From the NCBI GenBank assembly GCA_023475835.1, contig JAMCVM010000095.1, positions 1 to 37,091 on the forward strand: a DNA stretch of 37,091 nucleotides. Reading direction: 5' to 3'. Both the position numbers and the translations under genes were made by a program. Origin of the DNA: Bacillota bacterium. GTDB taxonomy: Bacteria > Bacillota > Sulfobacillia > Sulfobacillales > Sulfobacillaceae. Positions 1-37,091 of the stretch are shown one piece after another. Every line of letters starts with the position of its first letter. Positions within the stretch are counted from its first letter, which is position 1. Below the pieces are notes generated by a model that was not told the DNA's origin, searched no databases, and saw nothing but the letters and a program-made list of their open reading frames with translations.

Positions 1-813
1 GTCTTAGGATCGGACGGTTTGGGTTGGAGAATATCGGTGGGAGTGCGGCCCACCGGGATCACCCCAGACACGGAGCCCACCTCCGCCATGCGTTTGCACC
101 CTCGTTTCTCGCCCGACGATAACCGGGTCTGGAGTTTATGCCCGGGTTTCCCCACTTTGGCCGTGCTAGGTTGCAGGCCTTCCCGTCGCATCACGATCCC
201 TTTGCCGTCCACGGAAACGCCCAAGGCCTGGTCGGCGACAGCGTCCGGTCGCGGCTGATGCTGGTAGAAGGTATCGACGTCGATCGCGGCGCGTTGGGCG
301 AGTTGTTCCACTCGGCGTTTGCTCAGCCGCTGGCCCGTTTGGTCCTCGACGGACCGAACGGCTTGGTCAACCGATCCTTATTACCGCGGCCTTGGCGGCG
401 ATTTCCCTTAACCGATGCGAGTGTTTTTCGGTCGGGAGATTGGCCACCGCGTCGACAGGATAGAGATTGGCGGTGCCCTTATGGCAATAGGCCCGCCGCT
501 TCACCGTGATCGGCCCAAAGATGGTGACCAAGGGACGCGCTTGGTCGAGTTCTTGGGTGCTATGGACAACGCCCTGGGCATCCACCACCGGATCTCGTTG
601 GGGCTCCTCCTTCGCCCGGAAGGCAAAATGCTCGTCCATCGCCTTGCAGAGGATGTCTTGGCCCATGGTGTTCAGCTCGATTTCGAACACGGCGTGAGTG
701 ACATCGCGCGCCTGGTCACTCGCCACAAACGTCAAGAACGTGCCAAATCGCCCAATCGTCGCGTGAAAGTTCAGAGCATCGGCGATCGCGAAGTGCTGGG
801 AGGGGGTCATCAT
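1..813 (-). pseudogene. ISKra4-family transposase, frameshifted and cut by the window edge
   Basis: The N-terminal 148 codons (813 down to 367) carry the family-like segment with RRAYCHKG near residue 110 and LYPVDAVANLPTEKHSH just after it. The reading then shifts frame: from about 375 downward another minus frame gives DQAVRSVEDQTGQRLSKRRV, followed by GVSVDGKGIVMR, which looks like the start of the catalytic core, and it stays open to base 1. The junction at about 375-383 has no obvious slippery heptamer, so I read it as a one-base indel rather than programmed frameshifting, but cannot exclude the latter. The start ATG at 813 has a GGAG-type ribosome site about 8 bases upstream, inside the end of the DUF4338 gene. 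Family assignment comes from recognition of these motifs only. Confidence 0.65.
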
Positions 814-1779
814 CGATTCTCTCCTCTCTGGTTTGATGCGGAAGGGGTCGCATGATGAGCACCTGCCGGTTTGGCCGGATCGGTGCGACGACCGTCAGTT
901 AAGATCGCTCGGAAATTCGGCTGGAGCGGATAGACCCAGATATCGCGCACCGGTTTCGCGGCGGCGGCGGGCGCGGCGAGGCGCCCATGCCCTGTACTGT
1001 GACCAATCCGATGCCAATTGGCGGCCGCATAGGCGGTGCCGGCATAACGATCATGCTCGACAAAGGTTTCCAAGAGCACGAGGCGATCCCCATAGCGTTG
1101 GGCCCAATCGTCAGGTAATCAGCGGGCGACGCCCACCAAGACACTCGACGTTAACCCCTGCACCCACGGGAGCACCAGAAACCGTCGATTTTGCACCACG
1201 TGGAGCAAATGGGTGGTCCGTTCCTCGGGGGGTCCACCCAATCCATCGGTCCCGGTCGGCTAACTTGAGCGCTGGCGATCCAAAGTCCAAGCAGGCCAAT
1301 ACGCGGTCGTCCACGACCGCGAGATACCGGAGCTGCGGCCCCGCCATGTGGGCGCTGTGCAAGGGATGATACCGACGCACGAATTCGCTCCATAATCGAG
1401 CCGCGGCACTACCGCGCTCCAGTAACTGCCACTGGAGGTGGGGAAAGTCGCCGCGGGATCCCGTGATCGGCTCCTGGGCATCCGAGGCGGAGGTCAGGGT
1501 CACCTCATGCATCCCCAGCGATTCTCGGGTCGGCAAGGGCAACTCAATGACGCCATCGATTTCCATCTGTTACAAAGCTTTGAGACACGTCGAGAACTTC
1601 CGTTGGCCATTGGTCATGGTCCAGTCGAGAGCCGTACGGACCGCTCGGGCAATGGCACTTTGGGTGGTACACCACGGATCATCCGTGATGCGACGAATCG
1701 TCTCAAGCTCGGCCTCGGTGAACGAACGTCCCCCATCCCAGAACGGCGTTCCTCCGGGGTTGCGGCGTATGTTGTTCAT
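810..1779 (-). pseudogene. DruA-like DUF4338 protein, broken by two stops and one frameshift
   Basis: Read through its lesions, this locus gives a DUF4338 protein of about 323 residues. The N-terminal helix-turn-helix-like segment is at 1779-1573, the central part with RYLAVVDDRVLACLDFGS and DRWIGWTP at 1566-1230, and the C-terminal core with LLETFVEHDRYAGTAY, AANWHRIG and WVYPLQPNFRAIL at about 1085-890. Lesions are an in-frame TAA at 1570-1572, an extra base in the G6 run at 1227-1232 (C6 on the coding strand), and an in-frame TGA at 1119-1121. The family includes DruA of the Druantia anti-phage system, but most members are scattered singletons, and no DruB-E partner is visible here. The stop overlaps the transposase start. 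No intact protein can be made without suppression or sequence error. Confidence 0.75.
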
Positions 1780-2001
1780 GCCCCTACCCTAACAGGGGGT
1801 TAGGGGGTTGAGATCTCGTTACGCCCATCAAAGGCCGTACACGTGGATATGCGGGTATTTTCCCAGATTATCTCTAGAACAGGAGATTAGACGCAGGATT
1901 GCAAGCTCAATCTATGTGATACGATGTGAAAACCTTCCCTCCAAAAGAGCCACACCCATCCAATTTTCGACTGCCCAACGTTGGCCGCGCGTATCCATGC
2001 C

Positions 2002-30382: not shown

Positions 30383-31384
30383 GAATATACCTCCGTAAAG
30401 GCGACGACGCTTAGATTTTGATCCGACGCCCTTAATAGTGGAACAAAGTAATGTCTCTAAGTGTAATAACGCCGTGGTCACGAAAGAGGTTACCGCCATT
30501 CGAAATTTTGAAGTGCGCTCTTCCTCGGACTTAGACTTAACGAAAGGTGATGCCCACGACTGGTCAGTTCGGTCTATTTTTAGATGCTCCTTCTCGCTGA
30601 GATATACTGCGCGCGGGTCATAGTTTTCGTTTTTGGGAGAACGCCATCGTGTTGAAAAACCATTGTGCAGCAAGGTGTTGAGATGCCCACAGCCTTGCCA
30701 TCAAACCGTCAAATGTGACCCGATCGCAGTATACCATTCCCATCCCTTGCATCGGTGCAGCATCCGCGGTCTGCCATGGGTTAAAGAAACATCTCATCAC
30801 ATCAGGGAACATTTGAAGCGATCGGCCACCATCGTTTTAGTCCGTCAAATCGTCTCTCGACAAACTTCGGGCACCCCACCCCCGTGATTTCAACCCTTGA
30901 GGTGTTCCGATGCCCTCCAATCCATTCAGGTTGGTGGTGGATAAGCTTTATGAAAGTTTTAATCGAGTCCCTCGCCCTCCGGGTTGGAGCCCATGTCGCC
31001 AGCCTGAACCTGCACGTCGTATCCTAAACGCCTTGGCTTGTCCTGATCAATCTCACCCCGTGGTCCTGGTGACCGGCCGAAAAGATCTTATTAGAACAGG
31101 GTGGTTTGCCTCACCCACTCGTGCACTTCGAACCACAGGTGCGGCAACCAGGCAATCGGGCCATTTTGCTCCCATCGCCTGCTCTAGACTCAGCGCAGTG
31201 GCAGGCCACCCTCTCCTGGCAGGCGGCGGAGTGGCTTGATTCTACTCGCTGGAGCCAGTGGATTTCTCGAGCTAACAGCCAATTCTCGGATAGCAGCAGA
31301 GTTGTCGGTTCAAGACCGGCTATACTAAAAGTGCTCAACTCAGCGCACAATCGGAGAGTGCAAGCTAAGGAGGAAAACGCCTCA
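30383..31384. other. Long gap with a possible broken gene
   Basis: No intact gene. A plus-strand ATG at 30910 has GAGGTG five bases upstream and opens a 109-codon frame (KLYESFNRVPRPPGW, then HPVVLVTGRKDLI). From about 31090 a different frame continues as KILLEQGGLPHPLVHFEPQ, QPGNRAILLPSPALDSAQW and AAEWLDSTRWSQWISRANS, which looks protein-like and stays in frame with the next gene. Together they could be one gene with a frameshift. I do not recognise it. No tRNA was confirmed. Confidence 0.4.
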
Positions 31385-32707
31385 GTGACAGATCTCGCCC
31401 GCCGCCCGGCTTTAGACTACGACGTTATCATCATCGGTGGTGGTCCTGCTGGGCTTATGGCGGCTATCGCCGCCCGCGAAGAAGGCGCAAAAACCTTGTT
31501 GGTCGATAAGGGAGAGCGTTTAGGAAGAAAACTAGCAATCTCCGGCGGAGGTCGGTGCAACGTGACCAACAATAAACCCCTGCCCGAACTCATGGCCAAC
31601 ATCCCAGGAAACCCGAAGTTTCTCTATTCTGCCTTGACTAAATTTGGAAGTCCCGATATCGCACAATTCTTTGAACGCTTAGGGATTCGTTTAAAAGAAG
31701 AAGATCATGGCAGAGTGTTTCCCGTCTCCGACAAAGCTTCGACGGTTGTCAACGTGATGGTCGAGCGCGTGTACGCCTTAGGTTGCGAGGTGTGGCTGAA
31801 CCGCCCAGTCGTTGGCTTGATGGCTTCCGAAACAGGCATGGCGGTCAAATTCGAAGCAGACATGGTGCGTTGGACTCGCGCGGTCGTGATCGCTGCCGGA
31901 GGCTCCAGTGTTCCCCAGACAGGCAGTACTGGCGACGCCTATCCTTGGGCCAAGGCACTTGGCCACCGTATCGTCGCCCCATATCCCACCGCGGTGCCAT
32001 TGACCAGTCAATCGTGGTTTATCACGCAGTCCAGCTTAAAGGGGATATCGCTAAGAGAGACTACCCTCTCATTATGGTCAGAGGGATCCAAAAGGCCACT
32101 GGCTCAGGAGCAAGGTGACGTGCTGTTCTCTCACTTTGGATTGACTGGGCCAGCGGCGTTGCGTCTTAGTCACTTCGTGTCTACTGCTCTGAGAGCTGAT
32201 CCGGCTGCTAAGCTGCGAGCGAGCATAGACACCGTGCCCGGCCTGACAGCGGATGAGATGTTGTTAGGACTGAGTGAACGTCGACGAGTGGACGGCAAAA
32301 AGCGCCTGGAAACGATTTTAGAATCATGGGTCCCTGCCCGAATGGCCACGGTATTGTTGATCGAATCGGGACTGGACGGTCGTCAAGTCTCGGGCGAAGT
32401 GCCGGGAAAGGCACTGCAATCTCTAGTACAGCATGCCAAGGGGCTTTCGCTTTCAATTACCGGGACGCTCCCCTTGGAAAAAGCGACGGTCACCGGCGGT
32501 GGGGTCTCGGTTCAAGATATTGCGCCGGCAACCATGGCCTCCAAACGCTGTCCTGGGCTTTACTTTTGCGGTGAGGTGATGGATGTCCATGCGCATACCG
32601 GCGGGTATAACATTACGGTGGCGTTCTCGACGGGTCATCTCGCCGGTCAATCGGCTGCGCATTACGCTCTAGCATTGCCTCCATCGCATCTCATTGATTC
32701 TCAGTAG
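31385..32707 (+). CDS. HI0933-family flavoprotein (NAD(P)/FAD-dependent oxidoreductase)
   Basis: This 440-residue protein has the FAD-binding dinucleotide fold at the N-terminus (DVIIIGGGPAGLMAA, residues 13-27), the family box LGRKLAISGGGRCNVTN, ARAVVIAAGGSSVPQTGSTGD and the C-terminal FAD motif GLYFCGEVMDVHAHTGGYN. It belongs to the HI0933/BaiN group, B. subtilis YtfP being an example; the substrate is unknown for most. I chose GTG 31385 with AAGGAGG 11 bases upstream; the frame remains open for 93 more codons upstream, but those do not match the family. It ends before a gap and is convergent with the spoVA block. Confidence 0.9.
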   Translation: MTDLARRPALDYDVIIIGGGPAGLMAAIAAREEGAKTLLVDKGERLGRKLAISGGGRCNVTNNKPLPELMANIPGNPKFLYSALTKFGSPDIAQFFERLGIRLKEEDHGRVFPVSDKASTVVNVMVERVYALGCEVWLNRPVVGLMASETGMAVKFEADMVRWTRAVVIAAGGSSVPQTGSTGDAYPWAKALGHRIVAPYPTAVPLTSQSWFITQSSLKGISLRETTLSLWSEGSKRPLAQEQGDVLFSHFGLTGPAALRLSHFVSTALRADPAAKLRASIDTVPGLTADEMLLGLSERRRVDGKKRLETILESWVPARMATVLLIESGLDGRQVSGEVPGKALQSLVQHAKGLSLSITGTLPLEKATVTGGGVSVQDIAPATMASKRCPGLYFCGEVMDVHAHTGGYNITVAFSTGHLAGQSAAHYALALPPSHLIDSQ

Positions 32708-33617: not shown

Positions 33618-33816
33618 GAAAAATCCCTCCATAATGAGCGCAACCTGCCGCTTGCTCGAGGCGGGTTCGCTTGGCTGTTGATCGCAGAGAACGAACATTG
33701 CCGCGATTTGGTGCATAGATGCTGAGAAACGAGACGGGAAGGCCTGAAACCTGCAGCGTTCCGATCCCCGAAAGTCGCGCCGAGGTGTTGGCGTCGGGGG
33801 CGTAGAATGGGCCCAT
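33586..33816 (-). CDS. Possible small protein between spoVAEb and spoVAEa
   Basis: A 76-codon frame starts with ATG 8 bases after the spoVAEb stop and overlaps the spoVAEa start by about 32 bases. The first part (SARLSGIGTLQVSGLPVSFLSIYAPN) looks plausible as protein, the second is basic and lies over the spoVAEa start. The ribosome site is weak. It could be a real spore gene or a chance frame filling an unusually long gap. Confidence 0.28.
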   Translation of the reverse strand: MGPFYAPDANTSARLSGIGTLQVSGLPVSFLSIYAPNRGNVRSLRSTAKRTRLEQAAGCAHYGGIFRAKKTSHRDH

Positions 33817-36012: not shown

Positions 36013-36042
36013 TAGTATGGACCACGTCTCGCCTTTTACTCA
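36013..36042 (-). promoter_or_regulatory. Sigma-G-like promoter before dodecin-spoVA
   Basis: On the minus strand TGAGTA (36037-36042), a 17-base spacer and CATACTA (36013-36019) closely fit the forespore sigma-G consensus (TGAATA, about 17-18, CATACTA), with the -10 exact and one mismatch in the -35. Transcription would start about 35 bases before the dodecin ATG. spoVA is a sigma-G operon in Bacillus, which supports the call. Confidence 0.7.
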
Positions 36043-36537
36043 GGACAAATCTGGCATCGTGCGACCGCCCAATGCGCGACGATTCGTGGTCAGAGGTCCA
36101 TGGAATCAACCAATAGGCTCTCTTTCGTCTTTCACGCGGCTGGCACGGGTTACAGAACCATCCAACCATCTCGGCCAGAGAAGGTACTGAATTGAGCACC
36201 AATGATAGGGTTTGGGCGATGGTTCTGCTGCCGCGTATAGGGACCATCCATCCCCAATGGGGCTGACTTTCTTAGTCAAGGAGGACACTAACCGTTTCGA
36301 TCAACATAGATCGCTGTGCTATCACATCGATATGGCACACAGTTGTCTCTCGCAATTGTGCGAGACGCGAAATGGATCGCGTCGTCACGACCAGACGTAA
36401 ACAGGATTCGGCGAACCAAGGTGGTTAGCGAAGTCTAACCATCACCTCAAGGACCCAGAGACCTTCGGGCGACTGGATAGAGGATGGTTGGCTCACCGTT
36501 TGCGAGTAAAGCTCACCTGAGTGGGTTCCTCGTAAGA

Positions 36538-36559
36538 CTCCCCGCCCTTCAGGGCGGAG
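36538..36559. repeat. GC-rich hairpin resembling an IS200/IS605 end
   Basis: CCGCCC pairs with GGGCGG around TTCA, with CTC and GAG flanking. Hairpins of this form (CCCGCCC-TTCA-GGGCGGG) are common near the right ends of IS200/IS605 elements, where TnpB genes end. No TnpB-like frame is present, so this could be a remnant only. Confidence 0.3.
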
Positions 36560-36621
36560 AGTGTCAAAAGATGGGGTCGGACGCTTAACCGAGCGCCTCG
36601 ATCGTCCACTCTCCATGGATC

Positions 36622-36656
36622 AAAGCCGGAGTGCCATCGAGGGGTGCTCCGGCTTT
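36622..36656 (+). terminator. Long hairpin, possible terminator or structured RNA
   Basis: AAAGCCGGAG (36622-36631) pairs perfectly with CTCCGGCTTT (36647-36656), and four more wobble or GC pairs can extend the stem around a 7-base loop. The T-run after the stem is short (TTT), so termination is possible in either direction but not certain. Confidence 0.4.
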
Positions 36657-37091
36657 GGCAGATCGTATCCAAAGGACAGCCCCAGCGCCTCGCTCTAGGC
36701 ACAAGGCCGTGACATGACCTCCAGTCCACTACCCGGGCCTGAAGTTATCTAAAGTCAGAAACTGACAACCTTTGGAAAATCAGGTTTTGATGGCATAGAA
36801 TGGTCTACCACTGACAATACGAAAGGCCAAGCACCGCATCAAACAGTCAGACAGGCAGGGCTTTGGGCCTTCGACGGATAGAGTTTCTCTGCCAGAGAAC
36901 CGCTAAAGATAATCATTCTCCGCCCGGGTTATTTGTGTTGTGAGGCTACGTCGTTTAGGTCGTAGAAGGCGCTTTCACCCGCTATAACGTGCTTAAGCAT
37001 ATTTACACAGACCCATGCAGAAATCTCCTAGATCTGCACATTCCTGAACACGTCTGGAATTGTTCGCTCTTTCGGAGGCCGCAGTTTTGCT

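Follow-up and report, generated by a model that had tools for sequence, protein, structure and literature searches.

The window analysed here is the whole of a 37,091-nt stretch of DNA (positions 1-37,091 of contig JAMCVM010000095.1, assembly GCA_023475835.1) from a Bacillota bacterium of the Sulfobacillaceae. On its minus strand, a dodecin-family gene stands directly ahead of a spoVA operon, in which spoVAC, spoVAD and spoVAEb are contiguous. The features are listed below in the order in which the minus strand is read.

36042-36013, minus strand: sigma-G-type promoter, with the -35 TGAGTA at 36042-36037, a 17-nt spacer and the -10 CATACTA at 36019-36013
35970-35755, minus strand: dodecin-family gene of 71 aa, assigned to a putative sporulation-linked subfamily (PF07311, 88.8 bits against a gathering threshold of 22.5)
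35725-35693, minus strand: 13-bp hairpin CGCCTCGG-C-AGCGG...CCGCTCCGAGGCG, with no T-run, in the 87-nt gap between dodecin and spoVAC
35667-35197, minus strand: spoVAC (PF03862, 123 bits)
35197-34172, minus strand: spoVAD (PF07451, 399 bits; NCBIfam NF006160, 408 bits, above the cut-off of 402)
34175-33825, minus strand: spoVAEb (PF03862, 113.5 bits; TIGR02839, 135.4 bits, above its cut-off)
33716-33045, minus strand: SpoVAEa-type ORF in its longest form (PF14097, 183.8 bits)

The initial annotation of this DNA, made from the letters alone, had read a dodecin followed by spoVAC-AD-AEb with coupled starts. The Pfam matches agree with this order and add the SpoVAEa-type ORF, whose start is likely to be later than that of the longest ORF, near 33632. 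The best NCBIfam match for spoVAC is TIGR02838 (spore_V_AC), at 156 bits slightly under the cut-off of 164, while spoVAD is identified by NF006160, the model for stage V sporulation protein AD. At both the spoVAC/spoVAD and spoVAD/spoVAEb boundaries the start overlaps the preceding stop (TGATG and ATGA respectively), and these genes are therefore translationally coupled, as had been proposed. The dodecin and spoVAC are not coupled in this way.

The genome has a single dodecin gene. A 200-aa ORF in another frame (36247-35645) overlaps it, and was set aside because the dodecin has homologues throughout. Elsewhere in the window, a convergent ORF on the plus strand (31106-32707) carries the motif GGGPAGLMAA, from which we presume it to be an HI0933-type FAD-binding flavoprotein.

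Promoter and intercistronic hairpin

A 42-nt stretch separates the end of the -10 element from the dodecin start, and both the sequence and the spacing of the two elements are of sigma-G type, located as the initial annotation had placed them. The -35 has the form GNGTR rather than GNATR (A to G), as it does in several relatives. A position weight matrix was trained solely on sites before spoVAC in genomes that lack a dodecin, and used to scan both strands of the window. It ranks the dodecin promoter first in the whole window, at 17.8 bits with the runner-up at 13.8, and no site as good was found in five shuffles of the window. A promoter scan gave no sigma-70-type promoter for the dodecin at this site on the minus strand. 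The search for a riboswitch or other known RNA before the dodecin produced only one sub-threshold Rfam match, to which no weight was given.

Across the genome the motif alone is unconvincing, because in 3.8 Mb GNRTR-N17/18-CATAMTA matches 13 times and the reversed control pattern 10 times; it is position and conservation that make the case. When 7-mers upstream of the dodecin were counted without bias at 114 distinct dodecin-spoVAC loci, CATACTA came out by far the most enriched, occurring at 22 loci as against 0.66 expected from composition and 1 in control regions. The density of CATA[ACT]TA at 15-80 nt before the dodecin is 2.97 per kb, compared to 0.13 on the opposite strand and 0.09-0.19 within the dodecin gene and the dodecin-spoVAC gap. 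A clear CATA[ACT]TA at this distance precedes only 22 of the 114 operon dodecins, and the others may have diverged or more distant promoters, or may be reached by read-through from spoIIA.

The sigma-G-type promoter is almost missing from the gap between dodecin and spoVAC (2/114). In genomes of the same family that have no dodecin, the same promoter is found directly before spoVAC (16 of 19), and thus the promoter tracks the first gene of the operon. From the motif and its position we infer that the dodecin-spoVA operon is transcribed by sigma-G. Sigma-F and sigma-G promoters are alike (PMC3789822), and the dodecin promoter may be recognised by sigma-F. In the window's genome, an alpha/beta SASP gene is likewise preceded by the -10 heptamer CATACTA; there are two copies of it near that gene (locus L282, positions 1201 and 1548), the second being before another ORF.

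In the sister species (locus L162), an RRXRR/IscB-type ORF (245-1657, minus strand) and a HEARO-like RNA (1709-1929, minus strand; 78.2 bits against a threshold of 83) are found upstream of the dodecin promoter, which is intact downstream of this element. Positions 36342-36984 of the window are 85% identical to the stretch beside the IscB-type element; the L162 region concerned, element included, is 242-2535.

It had also been stated that no terminator lies between dodecin and spoVAC. This is correct in that a terminator scan found no canonical intrinsic terminator there, but the 13-bp hairpin, a strong one, had been missed. The hairpin is identical in the sister species. The structure z-score of the gap in the window is modest (-1.85); among relatives the gap has a z-score below -2 in 23 of 78 cases, compared to 10 of 114 control stretches, and a T-run follows the stem in 10 of the relatives' gaps. 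The likely function of the hairpin would be partial termination or mRNA stabilisation, either of which would favour dodecin.

Conservation of the pairing and the spoIIA-spoVA junction

The initial annotation had suggested a search for an upstream dodecin in related genomes, and the pairing proves to be widely conserved. The class was surveyed in 154 genomes, 108 of them with a dodecin and 135 with SpoVAD. In 98 of the 107 genomes that have both genes, the dodecin immediately precedes spoVAC-AD in the same orientation and is 489-898 nt upstream of spoVAD. In three genomes (G003, G140 and G029) it adjoins spoVAC with no adjacent spoVAD match, and in G097 the dodecin and spoVAD are at contig ends. 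A dodecin is present in 107 of 135 SpoVAD-positive genomes compared to 1 of 19 SpoVAD-negative genomes, and this one has spoVAC beside its dodecin. Outside the class, a sample of the phylum was assembled from 80 dodecin-bearing and 80 dodecin-negative genomes. The same dodecin-spoVAC-AD arrangement is found in 64 of the former, and SpoVAD is present above cut-off in 79/80 dodecin-positive against 56/80 dodecin-negative genomes. The Fisher p-values for co-occurrence (3e-10 in the class and 2e-7 in the phylum sample) both ignore the relatedness of the genomes. Among 80 GenBank-titled loci matched by the dodecin profile, spoVAC is downstream in 64, including those of Sulfobacillus benefaciens, Thermaerobacter, Symbiobacterium, Tepidanaerobacter and Thermosediminibacter.

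No dodecin was detected in 28 of the 135 SpoVAD-bearing genomes of the class, and it is therefore not required for SpoVA function everywhere. Six genomes of the class (G057, G066, G068, G070, G073 and G141; loci L242-L247) carry an additional dodecin from the same subfamily, with Lys6 changed to Asn, located away from spoVA.

The genes on the other side were read in operons with at least 900 nt of readable sequence 5' of the dodecin (n=65). In 60 of these, a SigF/SigG-family gene is directly upstream, 76-648 nt away. A sigF-type representative, taken from a locus (L192) where a GerA-family gene comes after the dodecin, has as its best NCBIfam matches the SigB/F/G and SigF models, under their equivalog cut-offs. 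In S. benefaciens and Thermosediminibacter litoriperuensis the ORFs run spoIIAA, spoIIAB, sigF, dodecin, spoVAC, spoVAD, spoVAEb and on to a GerA-family spoVAF, most of them being assigned by reading rather than by individual model searches. With sigF upstream and spoVA downstream, the dodecin locus is the spoIIA-spoVA junction. In B. subtilis, the order here is dacF-spoIIAA-AB-sigF-spoVAA-AB-AC-AD-AEB-AEA-AF.

In Dethiobacter-like genomes where dodecin and spoVAC are not adjacent, the dodecin is often between sigF and a GerA-family gene. The loci where it is not beside spoVAC include L192, L194, L183, L216, L217 and L255, often with this placement (the GerA-family gene being spoVAF-like), and L208, L212 and L254, where the next gene is DUF2229-like. 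No sigF match was found in the available upstream sequence of the window's own genus, and therefore the operon there probably relies on its own promoter.

Fold and ligand pocket of the dodecin

The PF07311 match places the protein in the dodecin fold family. AlphaFold2 predicts a beta-alpha-beta-beta structure (E4-14, H18-30, E36-49, E52-66) with a mean pLDDT of 91.6, and the top Foldseek matches of this model are all dodecins. In flavin dodecins the flavin is sandwiched by Trp38 and Gln57, while Arg45 is part of the CoA site of the Thermus dodecin and is replaced in its R45A structure, 2v19. The canonical dodecins that were compared (from Proteobacteria, Thermus and Streptomyces, both solved and plasmid-borne) have Trp38, Arg45 and Gln57. 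The window protein has Gly38, Thr45 and Lys57, together with Trp18. This set is close to constant: position 38 is Gly in 113/114 operon dodecins (Gly or Ala overall), position 45 is Thr in 113/114, position 57 is Lys or Arg in 114/114 and position 18 is Trp in 107/114. Not one of the 114 keeps Trp38 or Gln57.

Nearly all of the other dodecins examined from the phylum have the same residue pattern. The one clear exception (L253, genome G490) is an Rv0379-like dodecin, from the only dodecin genome of the phylum sample without SpoVAD. It is worth adding that dodecins on two haloarchaeal plasmids (L298 from Natronococcus and L299 from Halobaculum) share Gly38, Thr45 and a basic position 57 with the operon dodecins, so that this residue set is not exclusive to spore formers.

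The window protein does not reach the flavin-dodecin equivalogs of NCBIfam, scoring 58.5 bits against 75 for NF043052 and 51.6 against 100 for NF041389. We conclude that it has a dodecin fold and should not be named a flavin dodecin. The operon dodecins appear to form a sporulation-linked subfamily, one for which flavin is an unlikely ligand.

Proposed function and comparison with known systems

The gene order, its conservation, the promoter motif and the residue replacements are read directly from the sequences. The comparative evidence supports the proposal of the initial annotation that the dodecin heads a sigma-G-type spoVA operon, and we consider it probable that this operon, the promoter before it and a function other than flavin binding are all correctly identified. 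The ancestral order would have been spoIIAA-spoIIAB-sigF, dodecin, spoVAC-AD-AEb(-AEa-AF), with the dodecin in the place taken by spoVAA-AB in B. subtilis. Late in sporulation, sigma-G would transcribe the dodecin together with the DPA channel genes in the forespore, the hairpin setting the level of dodecin in proportion to that of SpoVA. As in other dodecins, the protein would most likely assemble into a small soluble shell, presumably a dodecamer located in the forespore, and because the pocket is rebuilt the usual flavin binding would not be expected. It would work with SpoVA, possibly handling Ca2+, DPA or another solute of the core. Our preferred guess is that Ca2+, DPA or Ca-DPA, as solutes that SpoVA moves, are bound or buffered by it, which would make it a soluble forespore carrier for what enters via SpoVA; this is speculative, and we hold it to be less likely than not. 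As leads towards such a ligand there are only the basic position 57 and its occurrence together with Trp18 in the calcium dodecin Rv0379.

The dodecin might instead be an abundant protein of the forespore core unrelated to Ca2+ or DPA (a filler, an amino-acid reserve, or the carrier of some other ligand), the operon giving it only its timing and the hairpin lifting its level above that of SpoVA. The SASP gene with the same -10 heptamer and the enrichment of stable structure in the dodecin-spoVAC gaps are in keeping with this, and we regard it as possible, though not probable. The linkage to the spoIIA-spoVA junction is deep and specific, however, and extends to genomes where the dodecin is between sigF and a GerA-family gene, which points to a connection with DPA or germination functions; the loss of the Arg45 of the Thermus dodecin also counts against an unrelated core protein. 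Alternatively, the dodecin could belong to the spoIIA unit, its expression coming early in the forespore from sigF read-through or a sigma-F promoter, so that its adjacency to spoVAC is incidental. The proximity of a sigF-type gene in most readable operons and the likeness of the two promoter types would allow this, but CATACTA is close before the dodecin in many genomes, the sister species keeps the promoter intact downstream of its IscB-type element, and the promoter is before spoVAC where the dodecin is missing. We consider such an arrangement unlikely.

The initial annotation had suggested a forespore dodecin that stocks flavin or limits flavin photochemistry. Its clear fold and the flavin bound by solved relatives would suit this role, but the two flavin-sandwiching residues present in the canonical dodecins are absent throughout the operon set, and the NCBIfam scores are too low, so that we think it distinctly improbable. 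Least credible of all is a housekeeping dodecin that is beside spoVA by chance in this genome. Nothing speaks for it except that dodecins are common small genes, and a coincidental neighbourhood is rejected by the class and phylum surveys, where the arrangement recurs over many families and dodecin co-occurs with SpoVAD.

Of these readings, a sigma-G spoVA operon headed by a non-flavin dodecin is the one we prefer. The dodecin gene has been retained at the spoIIA-spoVA junction in dozens of spore-forming families, which makes it a strong candidate for a component of spore filling or germination, and one that would be undescribed so far. Most studies of DPA loading concern Bacillus and Clostridium. 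If the dodecin is indeed a carrier, it would be a DPA-loading component in many non-model spore formers that is absent from B. subtilis. The operon dodecins would also define a dodecin subfamily with a ligand unlikely to be flavin.

In agreement with the initial annotation, the papers searched, which include few of the subscription ones, contain no account of a dodecin-spoVA operon, and none of them brings dodecin and spoVA together. Few papers pair dodecin with spore, sporulation or endospore, and the dodecin-spoVA locus is absent from them as far as their titles and abstracts indicate. The B. subtilis spoIIA-spoVA cluster is similar in having spoIIAA, spoIIAB and sigF followed by spoVAC-AD-AEb and the GerA-family spoVAF, with a sigma-G-type promoter before the spoVA genes. 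It differs in having spoVAA-AB where the non-model operons have the dodecin, and a profile survey found no dodecin in the B. subtilis control genome. In C. difficile, spoVAC-AD-AE is sigma-G-dependent, is expressed in the forespore and functions in DPA uptake, but the operon as listed consists of three genes (CD0773-CD0775) with no dodecin (PMC3789822). The spoVA2mob operon of Tn1546 in Bacillus is a sigma-G-type spoVAC-AD-AEb operon that also has a small gene of unknown function at its head; however, this is a DUF1657 gene plus a YhcN/YlaJ gene rather than a dodecin, and the operon is transposon-borne (PMC5133452).

As to the protein, the flavin dodecins of Thermus (2cz8), Halorhodospira (2vxa) and Streptomyces (6r1e) resemble the window protein in fold and length, with a TM-score of about 0.86, and it is 33-35% identical to the Thermus and Halorhodospira chains. 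Besides the replacements at 38, 45 and 57, the operon dodecins differ from them in the extra near-invariant residues Trp18, Asn43 and Thr45. The calcium dodecin Rv0379 of M. tuberculosis (3onr), compared by fold and aligned residues alone, is like the operon dodecins in lacking the flavin tryptophan and in having Trp18 and a basic residue at 57; it is unlike them in having Val38 and Asp45 where they have Gly38 and Thr45, and the identity is about 30%.
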